NCBI GenBank assembly: GCA_001464385.1
Contig: LNFB01000318.1
Span: 1-64,000 of the forward strand
Source: Deltaproteobacteria bacterium Ga0077550
GTDB lineage: Bacteria; Myxococcota_A; Polyangia; Nannocystales; Nannocystaceae
Direction of reading: 5' to 3'
DNA length: 64,000 nucleotides
The notes beneath the pieces were generated by a model, which had not been told where the DNA came from, searched no databases, and saw nothing but the letters and a program-made list of their open reading frames with translations. Both the position numbers and the translations under genes were made by a program. How positions within the stretch are numbered: position 1 is the stretch's first letter; each line of letters begins with the position of its first letter. Below, piece by piece: positions 15,922 through 27,306 of this stretch.

Positions 15922-17244
15922 ATGACCAATCACGCCGAGATCCTGCGCGCCCACGACATCGTATCGGGGCGCTATCGCATCGAGGAGCTGATCGGCGAGG
16001 GCGGCATGGGCCGGGTGTATCGCGCCACGCAGCTCAACCTCGGCCGCGCCGTCGCGCTCAAGGTCCTCATCCCCGGCGCGCTCGACAACACCGGCGTCGA
16101 GCGATTCATGCGCGAGGCCAAGGTCGCCGCGGCGCTGCGCCACCCGTGCGCCGTCGAGGTCTACGACATGGGCCAGGACGACGACCTCGTGTTCATCGCG
16201 ATGGAGTTGCTGGGCGGCCAAGTCCTGCGCAACCTGATGACCGACGGCGTGCCGTACAATTTGCCCGAGGCCGCCGAGATCGCCTGGCAGCTCGCGGACC
16301 TGCTGGTCACCGCCCACGGCATCTCGCTGGTCCACCGCGACCTCAAGCCCGAGAACGTCTTCGTCGAGACCCCGCTGCGCACGCGCGTCGTCGACTTCGG
16401 CCTGGCGTTCATCGAGGGTGGGCTCGAGCTCGGTCGGCTCACCCGCGAGGGGCTCGTCGTCGGGACCCCGGCCTACCTCGCGCCCGAGCAGGCCCAGGGG
16501 CTGCACGTCGGCACGTCCGCGGACATCTACTCCTTCGGGTGCGTGCTCTACGAGCTCGTCACCGGGGTGCCCCCGTTCCGCGGCAGCCAGATGAACGTGC
16601 TGACGCAGCACCTGTACGTCGCCCCGGTCAGCCCGCGCGACCGGGCCCCCGACGCGGCGATCCCTGGCGATCTGGATCAACTCATCGTCGACATGATGGG
16701 CAAGCGCGCGGAGGACCGCCCCACTGCGGCAGAAGTTCGCGAACGCCTCGAGCTGGTGCGACGGACGATCTCGGGCGAGCGCAACCGCGGCCGCGATCGA
16801 CTGCCGCTGCAGGGCCGCGCCGCCCGCATGGTCTCGGTCGTGCCCAACCGCATGTCGACGCTCACCGACGGCGAGGTGCCGATGGTCGTCGAGCTGTCGC
16901 AGCCGGGGATCCGATTGGCCGTCTACGGCCAGCTGACGCAGGAGGAGACCCTGTCGCTGGCGAGCAACGGCATCGAACCGCTGCACCTGGCCCCCGAGGG
17001 CGACCCGCGCGGGGCGCTCGCGGACGTCGTCCTGGCCCTCGGCCAGTCGCCCGCGCGCCTGCAGGAACTCACGGCGACCGGGGTCCCGGTCATCGCCACC
17101 AGCCTCGTCGAGGATGTGGAACAACTCTCGCATCTGCTGCGCCTCGGAGTCCGTGAAGTGCTAGTGCTACCCATTCGAATCGACGAGCTGGCGCGCAAGG
17201 TCCGACGGTTGTTCGAGCGGCAGCACCGCGGGGGGACGCCATGA
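15922..17244 (+). CDS. Ser/Thr protein kinase with C-terminal pseudo-receiver
   Basis: 440 residues. The kinase domain (about 18-285) has the glycine loop GEGGMGRVY, Lys47 in VALKVL, catalytic HRDLKPEN (Asp140), DFG (158-160) and APEQ. No transmembrane helix follows. Residues about 328-435 fold like a response-regulator receiver (strand IRLAVYG, later LADVVLALG, GVPVIATS, VREVLVLPI) but lack the acidic cluster and a phospho-acceptor Asp in the expected place. The tail may therefore be a protein-docking module. The gene starts 28 bases after the cyclase and its stop overlaps the next start (ATGA). Confidence 0.92.
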   Translation: MTNHAEILRAHDIVSGRYRIEELIGEGGMGRVYRATQLNLGRAVALKVLIPGALDNTGVERFMREAKVAAALRHPCAVEVYDMGQDDDLVFIAMELLGGQVLRNLMTDGVPYNLPEAAEIAWQLADLLVTAHGISLVHRDLKPENVFVETPLRTRVVDFGLAFIEGGLELGRLTREGLVVGTPAYLAPEQAQGLHVGTSADIYSFGCVLYELVTGVPPFRGSQMNVLTQHLYVAPVSPRDRAPDAAIPGDLDQLIVDMMGKRAEDRPTAAEVRERLELVRRTISGERNRGRDRLPLQGRAARMVSVVPNRMSTLTDGEVPMVVELSQPGIRLAVYGQLTQEETLSLASNGIEPLHLAPEGDPRGALADVVLALGQSPARLQELTATGVPVIATSLVEDVEQLSHLLRLGVREVLVLPIRIDELARKVRRLFERQHRGGTP

Positions 17245-20057
17245 GTGCCGTCGCCCTGGCGCTGTGGCTGCGGGCCGCCGCCGCCGATACCGACACGGCC
17301 GCGCCGGCGCCCGCCGCCGGCACGGTCGAGACGTTCGAGTACACGGTACGCGACGGCGACACGTGTGCAGCGATCGCGAAGCGCTTCTTCGGCGACGCGA
17401 AACGCTACGACATCATCCACCAGTACAACCCGGGGATGGGCCCGACCCCGCACGACCTGAAGGCGGGGCGGATCCTGATCCTGCCCAAGGTCGCGACCGC
17501 GAAGAACTCGGGGCCCGATGCCGAGGTCACCGCGTCCAGACGACGCGTCGAGGCGCGCGCGGCCAACGAGGACGCGTGGCGCCTCGCGGCGATCGGGCTC
17601 GATCTGTTCCGCGGCTGGCGGGTGAACACGCTGCCCAAGGCCTCGGCCGAGCTGACGTTCCGCGACACATCCGTGCTCGAGCTGCGCGAGAACACCCTGG
17701 TCATCATCTTCGGATCGACGCAGACCTCCGCGCGGCGCACGACGACGGAGGCCTCGCTCGATCGCGGGGCGCTGCGCTCGCGCCTCGGCGAGCTGTCGGG
17801 CGGCGCGAGCCTGAAGGTCGAGATGCCGGCGGCGTCGGCCGAGCTCGAGGGCGGCCGCGCGCTCGTCACCGTCGACGACGCGGGCACCTCGCGGCTGGCC
17901 AACCACGGCAAGGGCAAGGCGAGCGTCGCCGACCGACCCAAGGTCAAGAAGAAGAAACCCAAGGCGGTGAAGGTCGCCGGCGGCATGGGCTCGAAGGTCG
18001 AGGCCGGCAAGACGCCGACGCCACCGCACCGGCTCCCGCCCGCGCCTGCGTGGGCGCCCGAGCAGCGCACGCGCTTCGTGTCGATCCCCGCCGCGGGCGC
18101 GAGCGTGGCGGCGTCGTGGGTGGCCGAGCCCAAGGCCGCGTCGTACCGAATCGAGGTGGCGCGCAAGCCCGATGGTCGCGACGTCGTGGCGGACGCGGTC
18201 GCGCCGGGCACCGTGACCGCGGTCGAGCTGCACGGGCTGCCGCCGGGCGAGTACTGGATGAGCGTCGCGTCGATCGACCGCGACAAGTTCGAGGGCATCC
18301 CGAACGACGCGCTCGCGCTGCGGGTGGTCGAGGGCGCGATGGTGCTGCCCGACGGCACCGCGTTCGCGCTGCCGGCCCCGGACGCCGACACCGACGCGAC
18401 CGCAGCGGCGCTCGACGTGCCGCGCGGCACGATCCTGCGCGCGCCCGCGGGCCTGACGTGTCGGCTCGGCGACGCGACGCCTGCCGCGGAGGTCACGCTC
18501 GTCGATCCCGGCACCGCGTCGGTGTCGTGCACCGAGTCCGAGGGCGGCGCGATCGCCAAGCTCGACGTCGACGTGCTGCCGTGGACGCTCGCGCTGCCCG
18601 AGGGCGCACCCGCCGTCGTGCCGCTCGTGGTCGCCGAGCCCCGCGACGTCGAGTTCTCCCTGGCGTCGGCGAGCTACTCGATCGCAGCGCTGCAGGTCGA
18701 CGCGCCCGCGGGGATCCGCGTCGGCGCGCCGGTGAGCCTCGGCGACGGCCGCTGGCGGGTGCAGCTCACCGCGGACGCTGCGACGCCGCCGGGCGAGCTC
18801 GTGCTGCGCACGCCGGCCGGCGTCGAGCTGCAGCGCATCGCGTACACCGTCGAGGCGCCCGTGGTCACGGCCCCGGTCGCGACGCCGAAGCGCGAGGGCC
18901 TCCGGTGGATCGAGCGCTGGACCCCCGAGCGCAACATGTGGGAGCTCGGGGTGTACGGCGGCGTGATGGTGCCGTCGCGGAACCTCGAGCTGTTCGAGGC
19001 CGATCCGATGCTGGTCGATCAGGGCTTCCAGCACCTGCGCCGCGTGGCCCCGGACTTCGGCGCGCGCGTCGGCTACTTCCCGCTGCGGGTGCTCGGCGTC
19101 GAGGTCGAGGGCGGCGCGATGCCGACGCGCACCGCGTCGGACGATCGCGCGACGCTGTTCACCGCGCGCGCGCACGTGATCGGCCGGCTCGGGCTGTCGA
19201 GCATCACGCCGTTCCTCCTCGCGGGTCTGGGCGTGGTCGGGGTGGACGGCGATCGTGCTGCGCTCGGCCGCGACGTCGACGCGGCGATGCACTTCGGCGG
19301 CGGACTCGAGATCTTCACCCACCGCCGCGTCGCGGTGCGCTTCGATGTGCGCGACGTGGTGACCGCGAAGCGTGGCGTGCGGGCGGGGCTGAGCAGTTCG
19401 TTCGAGGCGCTGCTGGGGTTGTCCGTGACGCTCGGTCGCAAGCACGGCGAGGGGCGATTGCCGGCGGGTCGACCGGTCGCGGCGACGCCGGTGGCCACGC
19501 CGATCGTCGAGGCGCCCGGGCCAGTGTCCGCGCCACAGCCGACGCCGACGCCCGAGCCCGCGCCGGTCGTGACGCCCCCGGCCGACCCGAACGCCGATCG
19601 CGACGGCGACGGGATCGTCGACGCGAGCGACGCGTGCGTCGACGCCCCCGAGACCGCCAACGGCTTCGACGACGCCGACGGCTGCCCCGACGAGCTGCCC
19701 AAGGCGCTCGCGGACTTCGCCGGCGTCATCGAGGGCATCGCCTTCGCCACCGCCAGCGACGTGATCACGCCCGGCTCCAAGCCGACGCTCGACCACGCGT
19801 TCGCGGTACTGAAGGAGTTCCCCACGGTGCGCGTGCGGATCGCCGGCCACACCGACAACGTCGGCAAGCGGGCCGCGAACGTCGACCTCTCGCAGCGCCG
19901 CGCTGCCGCGGTGCGCAAGTACCTGGTCGACGCCGGCATCGACGCCGCGCGCCTCGAGACCCGCGGCGCGGGGCCCGACGAGCCGGTGGCGTCGAACAAG
20001 ACGAAGGACGGGCGCGCGAAGAACCGGCGCATCGAGTTCGAGTTGATCGGCGGGTGA
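17241..20057 (+). CDS. LysM-FecR-OmpA envelope protein
   Basis: 938 residues. An N-terminal signal sequence is followed by a LysM domain (about 32-83; YTVRDGDT ... LILPK), which binds peptidoglycan. A FecR-like beta domain (about 110-205) comes next, then a basic linker (VKKKKPK) and fibronectin-like strands (about 265-345). Beyond these lies a barrel-like domain starting WTPERNMWELG (about 553-740). One thrombospondin-3/calcium repeat (about 782-818) and a C-terminal OmpA domain (about 828-936, GHTDNVGK, NRRIEFEL) end the protein. It shares its second half with the protein at 7415. Overlap with the kinase gene implies it is the envelope end of the same signalling unit. It ends one base from the convergent lipoprotein gene. 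Confidence 0.92.
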   Translation: MSAVALALWLRAAAADTDTAAPAPAAGTVETFEYTVRDGDTCAAIAKRFFGDAKRYDIIHQYNPGMGPTPHDLKAGRILILPKVATAKNSGPDAEVTASRRRVEARAANEDAWRLAAIGLDLFRGWRVNTLPKASAELTFRDTSVLELRENTLVIIFGSTQTSARRTTTEASLDRGALRSRLGELSGGASLKVEMPAASAELEGGRALVTVDDAGTSRLANHGKGKASVADRPKVKKKKPKAVKVAGGMGSKVEAGKTPTPPHRLPPAPAWAPEQRTRFVSIPAAGASVAASWVAEPKAASYRIEVARKPDGRDVVADAVAPGTVTAVELHGLPPGEYWMSVASIDRDKFEGIPNDALALRVVEGAMVLPDGTAFALPAPDADTDATAAALDVPRGTILRAPAGLTCRLGDATPAAEVTLVDPGTASVSCTESEGGAIAKLDVDVLPWTLALPEGAPAVVPLVVAEPRDVEFSLASASYSIAALQVDAPAGIRVGAPVSLGDGRWRVQLTADAATPPGELVLRTPAGVELQRIAYTVEAPVVTAPVATPKREGLRWIERWTPERNMWELGVYGGVMVPSRNLELFEADPMLVDQGFQHLRRVAPDFGARVGYFPLRVLGVEVEGGAMPTRTASDDRATLFTARAHVIGRLGLSSITPFLLAGLGVVGVDGDRAALGRDVDAAMHFGGGLEIFTHRRVAVRFDVRDVVTAKRGVRAGLSSSFEALLGLSVTLGRKHGEGRLPAGRPVAATPVATPIVEAPGPVSAPQPTPTPEPAPVVTPPADPNADRDGDGIVDASDACVDAPETANGFDDADGCPDELPKALADFAGVIEGIAFATASDVITPGSKPTLDHAFAVLKEFPTVRVRIAGHTDNVGKRAANVDLSQRRAAAVRKYLVDAGIDAARLETRGAGPDEPVASNKTKDGRAKNRRIEFELIGG

Positions 20058-20058
20058 A

Positions 20059-21582
20059 TCACCCGTCGGTCGCCAACTCGAGCACCGGCGCATCGTCCAA
20101 CTGCGCGTAGTTCCCGAGCTGGTAGAACGCGTCCCCCTCTGCGTCCTGCAACTCGCAGGTCCCGTCCTCTCCCAGCCTGTACACCGACCCGTCCCACGGG
20201 CCAACGACGTTCTGCAGGCTCTCGACCCGGATCCCACCGCAGTCCTCGCGCTCCATCCGCGTGATGCGGGTGAAGCCCGGGTCCGATGCGCTGCCCTCCA
20301 AGAGCGGCGTCTCCGAGCACTCGGCGTCGCCCCAAAACCGGAGTTCCTCCGTGGGGCTCACGAATGGCGCCGGGAAGCAGCGCAGCGTGCCGTCGTCGTC
20401 CGTCGCCGGCTCACAGCCCTGGTCGAGGACCGCATCGAACCAACGATTGCCCGACCGCGTCGTGCCGGGGAGGACGAGGACCTCGCCATCGCCGGTGATG
20501 CCCCGTCGCCGCACGCGCCCCGGATCGTCGGCGACGACCCGCTCGAAGCGCGGGCCCTCGATCGGCGTGATCTCTTCGCCGATCGGGTGATACGAGTAGG
20601 TGTCGAAGGTGAACGGCACGAACGGTTCGCACGTGTCGCCGGTTCCGCGCTCGAACATCGGCCCCTCCCACGCGTCTCCCACCGCTCGCCAGGTCTCCCC
20701 GCCCGAAAAGGCCTGCAGGGTCGGCTGCTCGCAAGTGCCGTCGTCCGGGATCGCGAGCAGGCTGTTCGAGCACGCGTCGTCGGCGAAGCCGCGCGGCATC
20801 ATCGACGGCAGCTGGCAGGTCAACGCGTCGTCGCCGACGACGTAGGACGACCCGAGCACGCAGACCGTCGCAGTGCGCGGATCCATGAGCCGCTCCCGGA
20901 CGAACGCGCCGTCCTCGGCGACGAGCGCCCGCACCTGCACGCTGCCACGGGTCTCGACGACGACGGCCGCGGCGACGAACTCGTCGTCGTCGATCGGGGT
21001 CAACGCATGGCGCTCCGGATATGCGTCCCCATTGCACTGCCCCCGGAACGCACTGAACTCCCCCACGTCGCCGCTGCCGATCGGCGCGCCGCGCAGGTAC
21101 GCCTGATATCGGGGCCCCTCCGTGCAGTCGGCGGCGCCGGGCACCAGCCCACGCACGCGCGTCGGCGCGGCCGCGCAAGCCTCGAACCCCAGCGCGGGCT
21201 CGGTGCAATCCTCGCCGGTGAAGCCCACCGTGACGCCGTCGACGTCCAGCGGCAGGCACCGCGGCGTGCCCACCGAGTCGCGCACGAACTCGCAGTCGAT
21301 CCCCAGCTCGCCGTCGTACCAGTGCACGAGCTGCGTCACGCCGTCCTCGGTGCGCTCGATCACCGGCTTCAGACGCGTCCCGGCGCCGTACGGGCCCTCG
21401 CCCGGGATCGTCGGCGGCGGCGCGTCGCCGGTCGACGTGTCCGCGTTGGTGGTGCCACCGTCGTCGGTGCCGGCCGGATCGCCGCTGGTGTCGGAAGCCT
21501 CGCCGTCGCCGTGGGAGATCCGCTCCGGCCCGCAGGCGATCAGCAGCAACAGTCCGGTCCCCATCGTTCGTCGCGTCATCAT
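20059..21582 (-). CDS. Surface lipoprotein 1 of a twin pair (ECF regulon)
   Basis: 507 residues. A short signal peptide ends in LLLIACGPERIS, a clear lipobox, followed by a Gly/Asp/Thr linker. The rest is a repetitive extracytoplasmic domain with paired Cys and recurring FVRDSVG, VRGLVPGAADC and GNYAQLDDAP segments. No known family was recognised. It is about the same length as, and clearly paralogous to, the upstream lipoprotein at 21652, from N-terminal CGP-RISHGDGE to the C-terminal LDDAP-LEL. It has its own upstream GGAAAC-N16-GGCT element exactly eight bases before the ATG, so it can be transcribed separately from the operon. Confidence 0.85.
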   Translation of the reverse strand: MMTRRTMGTGLLLLIACGPERISHGDGEASDTSGDPAGTDDGGTTNADTSTGDAPPPTIPGEGPYGAGTRLKPVIERTEDGVTQLVHWYDGELGIDCEFVRDSVGTPRCLPLDVDGVTVGFTGEDCTEPALGFEACAAAPTRVRGLVPGAADCTEGPRYQAYLRGAPIGSGDVGEFSAFRGQCNGDAYPERHALTPIDDDEFVAAAVVVETRGSVQVRALVAEDGAFVRERLMDPRTATVCVLGSSYVVGDDALTCQLPSMMPRGFADDACSNSLLAIPDDGTCEQPTLQAFSGGETWRAVGDAWEGPMFERGTGDTCEPFVPFTFDTYSYHPIGEEITPIEGPRFERVVADDPGRVRRRGITGDGEVLVLPGTTRSGNRWFDAVLDQGCEPATDDDGTLRCFPAPFVSPTEELRFWGDAECSETPLLEGSASDPGFTRITRMEREDCGGIRVESLQNVVGPWDGSVYRLGEDGTCELQDAEGDAFYQLGNYAQLDDAPVLELATDG

Positions 21583-21590
21583 GATCGTCC

Positions 21591-21616
21591 AGCCGAGATC
21601 GGGGCCACGGGTTTCC
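21591..21616 (-). promoter_or_regulatory. ECF-type promoter of lipoprotein 1
   Basis: On the minus strand GGAAAC (21616-21611), 16 bases, then GGCT (21594-21591), followed by eight bases and the ATG at 21582. Hexamer, spacer and tetramer match the elements before the ECF sigma gene (26113-26138) and lipoprotein 2 (23205-23230). GGAA(A)C is a typical -35 for ECF sigma factors. The short -10 to ATG distance suggests a leaderless or almost leaderless mRNA. Confidence 0.65.
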
Positions 21617-21651
21617 TGCGTCGCGCGGCGTTCATCCCAGACTTCGTCCGC

Positions 21652-23192
21652 TCAAGCGTCGGCGACGAGCTCGAGCAACGGCGCGTCGTCGAGCTGCGCG
21701 TAGTTGCCGAGCTGGTAGACCGAGACGAAGTCAGGGATATCGTCGAGCTCGCACGCCCCGTCGTCGGTCAAGCGATACGCCGGGGCGTCCCACGGGCCGA
21801 CGACGTTCTGCAGGCTCTCGACCTGGGCGACGCCACAGTCGTCGAACGTGACGCGCGTCATGCGAGTGAATGCGTTCGTGGGCTGCTCCGCCATCTCGAA
21901 CAACGGCGTCGTCGAGCACTCGGGATCCCCCCAGGCATCGACCTGGTTCGGCCCCGCGAATGGCAGCGGGAAGCACCGCTGCGTCCCCTGGTCGTCGTCG
22001 GCCGGCCTGCAGGCCTGGTCCAGCAGCGAATCGTGCCAGCGAGCCATGTCGTCGTACGGCGACGACGAGAAGGCGCCTGGCAGCACGAGGGTCTCACCAT
22101 CGCCGACCAGACCGACGCGTCGCAGACGGCCGGGATCCTCCGCGACGGGCTCCGCCACGAGCATGATCGGCTCGACCGGATCGATCGGCGCGCTGAGCTG
22201 GTGATACGTGAACGGATCGAAGAGCGGCGCCTCGGCGGGCATGCACGCCCCCTCGACGCCGACCTCGTACTTCGGCCCCTCCCACAGCTCCCCGGGGCCA
22301 TACCACGCGTCCTCGATGCGGATGACTCTCGACTCCGGCGACGCACAGGTGCCGTCGTCCGCGAGGGCATAGACGGCGCTCGTGCATGCCGGGTCGGAGA
22401 AGCCGCGGCTCCCTGCGGCCGGCGGATAGCAGCGCAGCCCGTCGGCATCGACGTCCATGGTCTGCCACACCGGGCACACCGTCCCGAACCGGGGATGAAC
22501 CACGCGATCGCGGACGAACGCGCCGTCCTCGGCGACGATCGCCCGCACCTGCATGCTCCCCCGCGCCTCGATCACGGGGACACCGGCGACGAACATCTCG
22601 TCAGGCACCGGCTCCAAGGCGTAGCGCTCGGTGAAGTCGGTGGCGAACGAACCGCACGACCCGGAGGACGCATCGAAGCGCCCCACTTCGCCGGCCCCGA
22701 TCGGTCCGCCGCGGAGGTACGCTTGATGGCGCGGTCCGTCGCTGCAGTCGGCGGCGCCCGGCACGACACCGCGCACGTGGCTCCCGACGCTCCCGCACGA
22801 CGGGACCCCGACGACGGGCCCCGTGCACGCCTCGTCGCCGAACCCGACCACACCGGTGGGCGACTCGACCGGCAGACACCGCTGCGCCCCGACCGAGTCG
22901 CGCACGAACTCGCAGTCGATGCCGAGGTCATTGTCGTGCCAGTACCGGAACTGCGTGATGCCGTCCTCGGTGCGCTCGACCACCGGCACCAACCGCGTGC
23001 CGGCGCCGTAGGGGCCGTCGCCAGGGATCATGGGTGGTGGCGGCTCGCCGGTCGACGTGTCCGCGTTCCCGGTGCCACCGTCGGTGGTCGTCGAATCACC
23101 GGCGCTGCCCGTGCCTTCACCATCGCCGTGCGAGATCCGATCCGGCCCGCACGCCGCCACCATCGCCACCATCGCCACTGCTCGTCGCATCA

Positions 23193-23196
<4 letters not shown>
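21652..23196 (-). CDS. Surface lipoprotein 2 of a twin pair (ECF regulon)
   Basis: 514 residues from the first of three consecutive ATG codons; the second and third are also possible starts. The lipobox VAACGPDRIS is followed by a Gly/Thr/Asp linker and a Cys-rich extracytoplasmic domain. That domain is paralogous over its whole length to the lipoprotein at 20059 (shared FVRDSVGAQRCLP, GPYGAGTRL, ESLQNVVGPWD). This is a tandem duplication whose copies have diverged considerably. Its start overlaps the stop of the predicted barrel gene, and an ECF-type element lies inside the 3' end of that gene. Function unknown; likely surface exposed. Confidence 0.85.
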
Positions 23197-24422
<1,226 letters not shown>

Positions 24423-24444
24423 GCGTTCGTGCCTGCGCGCGCGC

Positions 24445-25491
24445 CTACGGCTCCGTGCAGCGGGCGCTCGCCATGTGCTCGCCGATCGACGCGGCGTGGT
24501 CGCCCGCGCCGAACCGCGCGAGGTGGCCGCGCCAGTACGCGCACACCTCGTCGGGTCGATCCGCCCGCGTCCGCAGCGTGCCCTCCTCGAACGAGAGCAC
24601 CTCGGCGACGGCGGGATCGTCGACCGATCGACGCACGCGCACGAGCTCGGCGATCGCGTCGTCGTAGCGGCCCGCGCGACGCAGCCCGGCCACGCGCTCG
24701 AGGGCGGCGTCGACGTCGACGGGCGCGCGGGTGGGCTTCGCCGCGGGTCGCGTGGGGCCCGGCGTCGCGGCCGGCGTCGACGCGGGCAGTGCCGCGGCCT
24801 CGGCGAGCACCCGCGTCGCGTCCCAGCCCAGCCGCTGACCCGGCGCCACGCGGTGCTCGGCCCCGTCGCGATCGACGAACGCGATCGCCCCCTCGAGCAG
24901 GTCGACGTGGCCGCCGTCGCCGCGCTGCGTCACCACGAAGCGGGTGCCGATCACCTCGATCGCGCCCGCGGCGACCTCGACCCGCACGCGCGGCTGGCCC
25001 TGCGCCACCCGATCGACGAGGAACAGCGCGACGCCGTCGACGACCCGCACGCCGCGGTCCGCCGACACCAGCGTCGCGGCGCCCCACACGTCGATCGACA
25101 GCGACGGCGCGCGCAGGCGCAGCCGACAGTCACCGCGCACCGACAGCGTCGCGTCGCCCTCGAGCGCGCACGCGGGCTCCGCCTCGAGTCGGCCGTCCCA
25201 GCGCGTCGCGATCGCGGGCGCGACGATCGGAGGCTCCGTGACGATCGCCGGCACGACGGCGATCACCGGCGCCGTGTCCCCGTCGATCGTCGCCCCCGAT
25301 GACCAACGCCGCCCGAGCGCGAACGCCAGGACCACCGCCGCGGTCGCGACCACCAGCGCGATCCCGAGGTGCCGCCGCCCCGCGCGGGCCTCGGCGCTGG
25401 CGACGATGCGCGCGTGCAGCCCCGTCGGCAGCGGCACGGCGGCGAGGGCCGCGTCGAGCTCGCGCAGCTGGGCCTCGTCGCGGTCATCCAT
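24445..25491 (-). CDS. FecR-type anti-sigma / signal transducer
   Basis: 348 residues. A short cytoplasmic helical part (about 1-38) would bind the sigma factor. One transmembrane helix follows (about 42-60, LGIALVVATAAVVLAFAL). The periplasmic FecR domain (about 105-225) contains GAIEVIGTRFVV, VDLLEGAIAF and VAPGQRL. The last about 100 residues are helical and may hold a tetratricopeptide-like motif (GRYDDAIAEL). Such proteins hold ECF sigma factors inactive until an outer-membrane signal arrives. The start overlaps the end of the sigma gene by eight bases, so the two are translationally coupled. Confidence 0.9.
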   Translation of the reverse strand: MDDRDEAQLRELDAALAAVPLPTGLHARIVASAEARAGRRHLGIALVVATAAVVLAFALGRRWSSGATIDGDTAPVIAVVPAIVTEPPIVAPAIATRWDGRLEAEPACALEGDATLSVRGDCRLRLRAPSLSIDVWGAATLVSADRGVRVVDGVALFLVDRVAQGQPRVRVEVAAGAIEVIGTRFVVTQRGDGGHVDLLEGAIAFVDRDGAEHRVAPGQRLGWDATRVLAEAAALPASTPAATPGPTRPAAKPTRAPVDVDAALERVAGLRRAGRYDDAIAELVRVRRSVDDPAVAEVLSFEEGTLRTRADRPDEVCAYWRGHLARFGAGDHAASIGEHMASARCTEP

Positions 25492-26086
25492 GATCGCGCT
25501 CCCGGTCGGGGTCGGTCTCCCGGTGGGTGTCGGACTCGGCGCGCGCCCGGGCGACCGCGTCGTCGGCCCGCTGCAGCAGCTTGCACACGTAGCTCTTGCC
25601 GAAGCCGAGGGCCTCGGCGATCTCGGGCTGCGACATCCCGTCGACGTGGCGCATCCAGAAGCACACGCGCTGCGCGTCGGGCAGTCGGCTCACAACCTCG
25701 AAGATCGCACCGAGCTCGCCGTGGACCACCCGCGCCCGCTCGGGGTCGTCCGCCGTTCGCTCCGGCGTCGCGAGCAGCCACCGCACGACGGGCAGGCCGA
25801 GCCACCGCTCGCGCCGCAGCCGGTTGAGGCTCCGGCTCGTCGTCGCGCGGTAGATCCAGCCCGCCGGGTTGTCCATGCCCGCCAGCCGCTCGGCGTGCCG
25901 ATGCACCTCGAGGTAGACGTCGTGCACGAGGTCCTCGGCCCACTGCCGGTCGCCCCGGCCGTACCGCAACGCGAGCTTGAACGCCATCGGTGCGTGCTCG
26001 CGGTACAGCCGCGCGACGATCTGCTCGCGCGTGGCGGCCACGGGTGCGGCCTCGATCCCTCGGGGGGTGGAGCTCACGGCATGCAC
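25484..26086 (-). CDS. ECF RNA polymerase sigma factor, autoregulated
   Basis: About 200 residues. Region 2 (LYREHAPMAFKLALRYG ... WAEDLVHDVYLEV ... GWIYRATTSRSLN) and region 4 (LPDAQRVCFWMRHVDGM, SQPEIAEALGFGKSYVCKLL) are complete. No ATG is suitably placed. I favour the GTG at 26086, which lies about 18 bases after the predicted transcription start; GTG 26077 is an alternative. A longer open frame to 26224 would cross the promoter and is not favoured. It directs RNA polymerase, most likely to its own promoter and to the two lipoprotein genes. It is the first gene of a five-gene leftward operon. Confidence 0.9.
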   Translation of the reverse strand: MHAVSSTPRGIEAAPVAATREQIVARLYREHAPMAFKLALRYGRGDRQWAEDLVHDVYLEVHRHAERLAGMDNPAGWIYRATTSRSLNRLRRERWLGLPVVRWLLATPERTADDPERARVVHGELGAIFEVVSRLPDAQRVCFWMRHVDGMSQPEIAEALGFGKSYVCKLLQRADDAVARARAESDTHRETDPDRERDHG

Positions 26087-26112
26087 GGCGGATCCGACGG
26101 GGACCGCGGGAT

Positions 26113-26138
26113 AGCCAACGGACGGGCCCGGAGTTTCC
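26113..26138 (-). promoter_or_regulatory. ECF-type autoregulatory promoter of the sigma gene
   Basis: Minus strand GGAAAC (26138-26133), 16 bases, GGCT (26116-26113), in the otherwise gene-free region upstream of the sigma start. It is the same bipartite element, with equal spacing, as the ones before lipoproteins 1 and 2, which implies positive autoregulation of the ECF sigma factor. Confidence 0.65.
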
Positions 26139-26230: not shown

Positions 26231-26815
26231 CTACTCGGGTGGGTCGTCGCCGAAGAGCGCGCCGACGGGGAGCTCGATCGCGTCGAACGGCTCGGGGCGG
26301 ACGGTCTCGCCCCGCTCGGCTCGCAGCACCGTGATGTAGCCCGCCTCGCTCCAACGCATCACCGTCAGCGTCGCGTCGCGCGGATCGACGAGCCAGTAGT
26401 GAGGCACGTTCGCGCGGTGATACAGGCGCAGCTTCTTCACCGTGTCGTTGTTCGCGTTGCGCGGCGAGACCACCTCGCAGATCCAGTCGGGTCGATCGGT
26501 CACCGGAGACCCCGTCGGGCGCACGGGCACGCGCTCGCGTCGCCATCCGAGGACGTCCGGGCGGACGACCTCGAGGGAGAGCGCCACCTCCACCTCGGTC
26601 GCGATCCACCAGCCGCCCGGACCACCGCCGCCGCCGCCGCGACGTTGGTACGCCGGCAGGATCGCGCTCGCGACCCCCGCCTGCGCCGCCCCGTGCTCGC
26701 CGGTCGGCGTGGCCTTCTCGACGATCTCGCCGCCGAGCAGCTCGTGGAACCGCCGCTCGGCGGGGATCGCCAAGAACTCCGCGAGGGTGGCGCTTCGCGT
26801 CGCCTTCGAGGTCAC
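26231..26815 (-). CDS. Uma2/DUF820 family putative endonuclease
   Basis: 194 residues from GTG 26815, which has GGGGATC upstream and gives the family-typical N-terminus SATLAEFLAIPAERRFHEL. The restriction-endonuclease-like core shows Asp in PDVLGW, Glu in PDWICEVVSP, and the following YHRANVPHYWLVDP segment with the usual KLRLY. Uma2 proteins are widespread in cyanobacteria and myxobacteria, but their function is not established. A GTG at 26866 would overlap the stop of the dehalogenase-like fragment (GTGA) and add 17 residues. It is the last gene of the leftward group 26231-27306. Confidence 0.85.
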   Translation of the reverse strand: MTSKATRSATLAEFLAIPAERRFHELLGGEIVEKATPTGEHGAAQAGVASAILPAYQRRGGGGGGPGGWWIATEVEVALSLEVVRPDVLGWRRERVPVRPTGSPVTDRPDWICEVVSPRNANNDTVKKLRLYHRANVPHYWLVDPRDATLTVMRWSEAGYITVLRAERGETVRPEPFDAIELPVGALFGDDPPE

Positions 26816-26862
26816 GTCGACAGGATCCCCGGGCTCGACGCCCCGTGCAAGCTCCCGAGGGG

Positions 26863-27306
26863 TCACCGCGTCCGGGCGTGGGATGCGGCGAAGGTCGCGA
26901 TCGCCCGGCCGATCGCCGCGGGTTGGTCCTCGGCGAGGAAGTGCCGCCCCCGGCCCACGTCGACCAGCGTCGTGTTCGCGAACTCCCGCCCGATCCGCCG
27001 CGCCGTCGCCGGACCGATCAGCATGCCGGGTCGCGCGTGGAGCAGCAGCTTGGGCACCTTCGACGCCGCGAGCCACGTGGCGTAGCCGTCCATGATCCCC
27101 GGCGGATCCCAGGGGTCTCGGCTGCGCCCCTTCGCGGGCATCGCTGCGGGTCCGAAGGGCAGGAGCACGCGTCGCCGCGTGTCCTCGTCGGCGAGCGCTG
27201 CGCGATACTCCGCGAGCGCAGCGTCGTCGAGCCGACGCACGGTCCCCATCTTCGCGAGCATCATCTCGACCATGATGTTGCGGCGCACGACGTACTTCTC
27301 CGCGTC
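26863..27306 (-). pseudogene. Haloalkane dehalogenase-like alpha/beta hydrolase, C-terminal half only
   Basis: About 148 residues align by eye with the last half of haloalkane dehalogenases: the cap segment EKYVVRRNIMVE, then LAEYRAAL, then WLAASKVPKLLLHARPG. The catalytic His sits in GRGRHFLAEDQPAAIG, the counterpart of the family's HFIQEDSPDEIG. The first half, with the nucleophile Asp and acid residue, is absent. Immediately upstream (about 27303-27310) the sequence turns into a LysR gene on the other strand. The fragment cannot form an active site and is probably dead, although the frame remains open upstream. Confidence 0.75.

Follow-up and report, generated by a model that had tools for sequence, protein, structure and literature searches.

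What does an extracytoplasmic function (ECF) sigma factor control when its gene stands beside genes for a FecR-domain protein, a small outer-membrane barrel and two lipoproteins, and does it also control itself? The question is raised by a 64,000-nucleotide stretch of Deltaproteobacteria bacterium Ga0077550, a member of the Nannocystaceae (contig LNFB01000318.1, positions 1 to 64,000; hereafter the window), whose minus strand encodes, in this order, an ECF sigma factor, a FecR-domain protein, a barrel, lipoprotein 2 and lipoprotein 1. Sigma and FecR genes overlap by a few bases, and so do the genes for barrel and lipoprotein 2. A sequence-only reading of this DNA had joined the genes into an autoregulated sense-and-respond module by way of three identical promoter-like elements, GGAAAC-N16-GGCT. 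We favour, with a probability of roughly 0.7, a TonB-independent, positively autoregulated cell-surface-signalling module with an exchangeable lipoprotein output. The locus combines three copies of the element, their conservation with the sigma lineage, linkage of sigma, FecR and barrel genes, lipoprotein genes as targets, and no evident wider regulon.

Are three such elements more than a coincidence? As had been claimed, all are exact in boxes and spacing; they share one strand, span 4.5 kb, and each directly precedes a gene start (sigma, lipoprotein 2, lipoprotein 1), against an expectation of 0.02 exact matches in the window. None of 100 shuffles reached three. With up to two mismatches allowed, the window yielded 31 matches for 37 expected; because this count is at chance level, it is the exact matches that carry the signal. 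The sequence-only reading had raised the question of whether the element occurs at a random rate in the genome. Genome-wide it does, with six exact matches in the 10.2-Mb draft (92% complete) against five for a reversed-pattern control, whereas at the locus, with three against 0.02, it does not. The three matches elsewhere lie within or adjoin long reading frames, with no clear placement 5' of starts. Since the genome total is near background, the excess is restricted to the sigma operon; a regulon scattered over the genome is rejected, as the exact pattern outside the locus is background only. Any regulon here would be private and operon-local, consisting of three promoters of one operon. A search of the operon region for sigma70-like promoters and intrinsic terminators found none.

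Does the element accompany this sigma factor beyond the window? Orthologues of the sigma protein occur in Nannocystaceae, Polyangiaceae and Archangiaceae at about 35-46% identity overall (about 40-46% in Nannocystaceae and in the Polyangiaceae Sorangium, Polyangium and Minicystis, weaker in Archangiaceae). They are rare: among 379 genomes sampled from the phylum, 8 gave a match at E <= 1e-25. Immediately 5' of the first operon gene, these relatives carry GGAAAC, and alignment of the sites gives a fixed GGAAAC-N18-TG, mostly TGA(T). Conservation 5' of sigma orthologues had been set beforehand as a test, and the outcome was positive: 20 of 31 sigma loci, compared to 0.05 expected, carry GGAAAC-N18-TG in the 200 nt 5' of the operon's first gene, a count in which first-gene starts are approximate and near-identical Nannocystis and Polyangium species each contribute. 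The N18 spacing was read from some of the loci later counted, so the strongest independent support comes from Polyangiaceae and Archangiaceae, where the spacing is identical. Presence of the element is clustered on the sigma tree, in which some outgroup rows are of poor quality, requiring 6 changes compared to a mean of 13.3 after shuffling, with none of 500 shuffles as low. On sequence evidence, then, the element tracks the sigma lineage across families.

Which nucleotides form the second box? The sequence-only reading had taken GGAAAC as the -35 box and GGCT as the -10 box. The former held, as an AAC-type -35 box (GGAAAC) 5' of the sigma gene or operon is conserved, and from it autoregulation is predicted. 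The latter did not carry over to relatives, which have TGA at N18, where the three window elements read CTG, CTG and CTA; at N19 the window reads TGG, TGG and TAT. The -10 region of the window is GGCT(GG/AT), with CGT or TCT directly before GGCT. A CGT-type -10 box was part of the early definition of ECF factors, a requirement since dropped (PMC8103513). One relative (L045) has GGCTGA, intermediate between the GGCT of the window and the TGA of relatives. Given TGA at N18 in relatives, GGCT is likely the local version of a -10 box of the TGA type. To judge from these alignments, TG(A) is a better candidate for the second box than GGCT; it lies at N18 in relatives and may lie at N19 (TGG/TAT) in the window.

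What are the targets? Apart from the operon's own promoter, copies of the element within about 4.7 kb of a sigma gene precede lipoprotein genes, 2 in the window and 11 in relatives. In these relatives the gene for the secreted lipoprotein is divergent in four Nannocystis and at loci L050 and L041, and four Polyangium and Archangium L079 have it downstream. One match, antisense within the sigma gene of L058, has no such target. The family of the sigma-linked lipoprotein varies by lineage: DUF7481 in the window, a family of 175-205 residues in Nannocystis and its kin, a repeat-rich protein at L041 that by eye resembles a beta-propeller, cysteine-bearing proteins in Polyangium, and short Asp/Ala-rich ones in Archangium. 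The pattern GGAAACNYYN15TGAT occurs once in each of three 12-13-Mb Nannocystis genomes (G015, G016, G020), at the sigma-linked lipoprotein gene (control 0). The ATG of the lipoprotein genes follows the element after 8 nt in the window (about 7-9 nt in Nannocystis), so their transcripts would be expected to be near-leaderless. At two loci (L037 and L038), the divergent lipoprotein side has AAAAC in place of GGAAAC, as G(G/C)AAAACGC-N2-GCGATCTCGGGAATNTGA, common to both genomes. In four Polyangium loci (L060, L061, L062, L064), the second promoter, at roughly +1762 to +1823 relative to the sigma match, holds an inverted repeat, GCGAGG...CCTCGC, between its boxes, which may be an operator.

Pfam and lipobox signal peptides agree with the earlier assignment of an ECF sigma factor, a FecR protein and two paralogous lipoproteins. 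The sigma protein of about 200 amino acids is an ECF (group IV sigma70) factor: it has only the sigma2 and sigma4 domains (Sigma70_r2, 3e-13; Sigma70_r4_2, 1.3e-9) and scores above the cut-off for TIGR02937 sigma70-ECF. The FecR-domain protein comprises an N-terminal, cytosolic part of about 41 residues, a hydrophobic segment at 42-60, the FecR domain at 144-203 and a C-terminal region; the single strong hydrophobic segment in the hydropathy profile fits the expectation for a membrane-anchored anti-sigma factor. The barrel that had been proposed from sequence is supported by AlphaFold2 and Foldseek. The model, built from 13 homologues, has two N-terminal beta-alpha-beta-beta-beta-alpha domains (15-102 and 120-200), followed by an 8-stranded OmpA/NspA-type barrel at 241-396 (mean pLDDT of the model 81.6, mostly >90 in the barrel), and it matches OmpA, NspA, Ail and OmpX. 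No Pfam family matched the protein, TonB-dependent receptor and plug domains included, and it is thus predicted to be an OmpA/NspA-type barrel and not a TonB receptor. A sequence search of solved structures gave no significant match for the FecR protein or the barrel. The two lipoproteins are 55% identical and score 63.8 and 37.9 bits for DUF7481 (PF24297) against a curated cut-off of 26.1. An AlphaFold model of the lipoprotein, from two sequences in the alignment, gave no confident fold (pLDDT 28).

Is the linkage of barrel and FecR genes to the sigma gene conserved? In Nannocystaceae both flank the sigma gene at nearly all loci, usually in the order barrel-sigma-FecR. A profile search, in which some contigs were short and Nannocystaceae rows had contributed to the profiles, found barrel and FecR jointly at 23 distinct loci. 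Two loci, both in G003, had only FecR, and nine (seven from Polyangiaceae, two others) had neither. This co-occurrence supports the view that the barrel may act via FecR. Polyangiaceae (L058-L064, L073) retain the sigma gene and the promoter, in Polyangium and Sorangium together with a lipoprotein gene, while FecR domain and barrel are both absent; in Sorangium the second gene encodes a proline-rich protein.

How might these parts work together? In the resting state, the ECF sigma factor would be retained by the FecR-domain inner-membrane protein. The OmpA-type barrel would relay some change at the outer membrane through its two periplasmic domains, whereupon FecR would let the sigma factor go. 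Sigma-RNA polymerase would then activate the GGAAAC-N16-GGCT promoter of its own gene, giving more sigma, FecR and barrel, and the same sigma factor would activate each lipoprotein promoter, producing a burst of lipoprotein from the near-leaderless transcripts. Direct recognition of the element by the operon's sigma factor is highly probable, and so is positive feedback. From anatomy and co-occurrence, FecR is probably the anti-sigma factor and the barrel probably the outer-membrane signal relay; the lipoproteins possibly reside at the cell surface. Of the module proposed from sequence, linkage and conserved promoter stand, while its "regulon" shrinks to three promoters, with no unlinked target found.

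Several observations weigh against this scheme. The -10 region of the window is unlike the TGA of relatives, with 1 nt of ambiguity in its spacing. As the genome total of the exact pattern equals that of the control, unlinked targets would be unrecognisable by pattern. The window sigma factor sits on a long branch (0.77) without a close orthologue in its own genus. Polyangiaceae lack FecR and barrel, and two G003 loci lack a detectable barrel, so neither partner is universally required. Finally, the FecR proteins of FecI systems can also serve as activators.

Could the promoters be alike for other reasons? The sequence-only reading had itself cautioned that the two lipoprotein promoters may resemble each other through gene duplication, in which case only the sigma promoter would be functional. 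The genes are indeed paralogous, with 69% nucleotide identity between their coding sequences, and they are the sole DUF7481 genes of this genome. Their upstream 60 nt, however, are 33% identical, where random sequence gives about 30%, and their spacers agree at 7 of 16 positions, while the boxes agree at 10 of 10. A search near the starts of other DUF7481 genes in the family, among them the closest from the same genus (L158), found no element; we therefore reject the idea that the element belongs to DUF7481 genes as such. In relatives, lipoprotein genes of other families do carry it. With flanks at random identity, identical boxes and other DUF7481 genes without the element, duplication does not account for the likeness of the promoters, and we assign it very little weight as an explanation. 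Still closer to negligible is a chance cluster: the pattern was picked after inspection and its genome-wide total equals that of the control, but three matches on the same strand within 4.5 kb, all directly 5' of gene starts, and conservation at 20 of 31 loci argue otherwise.

Granting that the promoters are real, might another ECF sigma factor of the genome read them, the operon's sigma gene being merely one target? Many ECF sigma factors use GGAAC-like -35 boxes (PMC8103513), and the genome has further ECF sigma genes (two more matches at E <= 1e-10). We nevertheless regard this as improbable, as the element follows the lineage of the operon's sigma factor across families and is present at that factor's own operon, and scarcely any other exact copies exist in the genome. 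The order of sensing might also differ: the lipoprotein would be an RcsF-like sensor that the barrel holds, possibly within its lumen, just as a barrel has the lipoprotein threaded through it in RcsF-type complexes, or else the barrel would be only an output gene. Elements precede lipoprotein genes in all lineages, Polyangiaceae do without barrel and FecR, and a motif behind the lipobox is common to the lipoproteins of the window and of Archangium; RcsF, moreover, forms complexes of lipoprotein and outer-membrane protein, OmpA included (PMC4942254, PMC7553776). Against this, co-occurrence of barrel and FecR suggests communication between those two, and a lipoprotein family that switches while the barrel stays constant is more in line with an exchangeable output than with a conserved sensor. 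We thus consider such an arrangement unlikely, and retain the barrel as the relay and the lipoproteins as the output.

The motif just mentioned is a lead of its own. From the lipid-bearing cysteine onward, both window lipoproteins read CGP[DE]RISHGDGE, and in L076 and L079 the sigma-linked lipoproteins, which otherwise differ from them, start CGVDR[IL]QH. No other frame in 1.54 Mb of relatives' loci matches CG.[DE][RK][ILV].[HN]. The motif was looked for and is not present in DUF7481 proteins unlinked to sigma, and other sigma-linked lipoproteins (Nannocystis, Polyangium) are without it. As the pattern was defined after inspection of the sequences and is absent from those other sigma-linked lipoproteins, it is a lead only. 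A bold and quite unlikely extension would be a Myxococcota-wide system, in which OmpA-type barrel and exchangeable lipoprotein form one outer-membrane unit and CGx[DE]R[IL]xH docks the lipoprotein to the barrel; loss of docking would be relayed by the periplasmic domains of the barrel to FecR, which would release sigma and so give more lipoprotein. If true, this would be a homeostatic sensor of cell-surface lipoprotein occupancy.

Table 1. Promoter elements, genes and protein motif of the sigma operon, with positions in the window unless otherwise indicated.
Feature	Positions	Strand	Evidence
Sigma-operon ECF-type promoter element, GGAAAC-N16-GGCT(AT)	26113..26138	-	Exact match; GGAAAC-N18-TG kept in relatives
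ECF sigma factor; likely GTG start 26086 or 26077, 26-35 nt past element	25484..26086	-	Pfam Sigma70_r2/r4_2
FecR-domain membrane protein, putative anti-sigma	24445..25491	-	Pfam FecR (PF04773) 1.3e-6; hydropathy; kept beside sigma
Outer-membrane barrel protein, predicted	23193..24422	-	AlphaFold2 and Foldseek
Lipoprotein 2 promoter element, within barrel gene 3' end; ATG 8 nt downstream	23205..23230	-	Exact match
Lipoprotein 2, DUF7481; post-lipobox motif CGPDRISHGDGE	21652..23196	-	Pfam PF24297; motif scan
Lipoprotein 1 promoter element, intergenic; ATG 8 nt downstream	21591..21616	-	Exact match
Lipoprotein 1, DUF7481; motif CGPERISHGDGE	20059..21582	-	Pfam PF24297; alignment; motif scan
Post-lipobox motif CGx[DE]R[IL]xH	window 21534, 23151; L076 8585; L079 4865		Motif scan

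Two neighbours of the operon were noted. Convergent with lipoprotein 1, the plus strand at 17241-20057 encodes a 938-residue chain that combines LysM, FecR, OMP barrel-like and OmpA domains (Pfam), so that FecR and barrel are fused here next to an operon with both as separate genes. Immediately 5' of the sigma operon, at 26231-26980 on the minus strand, lies a gene for a putative nuclease of the Uma2 family (PF05685; Pfam), matches to which were sought at the relatives' loci and not found.

How does the module compare with known systems? FecR-like cell-surface signalling is known chiefly with TonB-dependent iron and sugar receptors. In the SusC/SusD loci of Bacteroidetes under ECF/FecR-type control, an ECF/anti-sigma pair is linked to an outer-membrane barrel and a surface lipoprotein; the comparison is one by description, and SusC is a TonB-dependent transporter, unlike the window barrel. 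In keeping with the sequence-only reading, which knew of no description, our literature search, with subscription papers mostly outside its coverage, found no account of an ECF/FecR pair combined with exchangeable lipoproteins and a barrel of the OmpA type, in myxobacteria or otherwise. What sets the module apart is a small OmpA-type barrel in the receptor's place, apparent autoregulation, and a lipoprotein output that is swapped against a constant background of sigma, promoter and, except in Polyangiaceae, barrel. It offers a testable case of TonB-free signal transfer across the outer membrane, a natural series of swapped outputs, and a GGAAAC-N18-TGA consensus usable for target prediction.

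Like FecI-FecR-FecA of E. coli and its relatives in Pseudomonas, the window links an ECF sigma factor, a FecR-domain inner-membrane regulator and a barrel with an N-terminal periplasmic part, and the sigma factor is predicted to drive genes for outer-membrane proteins. FecA, in contrast, is a TonB-dependent receptor with a plug and an N-terminal signalling domain, whereas the window barrel is 8-stranded and of the OmpA/NspA type; and unlike fecIR, which is transcribed by sigma70 without autoregulation (PMC9249621), the window operon has its own sigma-type promoter and an output that includes lipoproteins. As two defining Fec features are thus missing (a TonB receptor and a sigma70-transcribed, non-autoregulated sigma gene), we do not file the module as a Fec system, though by analogy it may work in a Fec-like manner. 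In Fec signalling FecR makes two contacts, a cytosolic one with the sigma factor and a periplasmic one with a domain of the barrel; for the window both are hypothetical. Autoregulation as such is ordinary among ECF factors (about 55%; PMC8103513). The RcsF-OmpA/OMP complex of E. coli likewise has a lipoprotein and an OmpA-type barrel at the outer membrane and sends a signal across the envelope (PMC4942254, PMC7553776), but Rcs is a phosphorelay instead of an ECF sigma factor, and the pairing of lipoprotein and barrel in the window is hypothetical. Leptospira LIC_12757/LIC_12756, likened here by description only, is also an autoregulated ECF sigma factor adjoining a FecR-like regulator; the accessible part of that account identifies no TonB transducer with a signalling extension and, unlike the window, names no barrel partner or lipoprotein target (PMC12155086). 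In this autoregulated FecR-type system without a known receptor, an OmpA-type barrel could now be sought as well.

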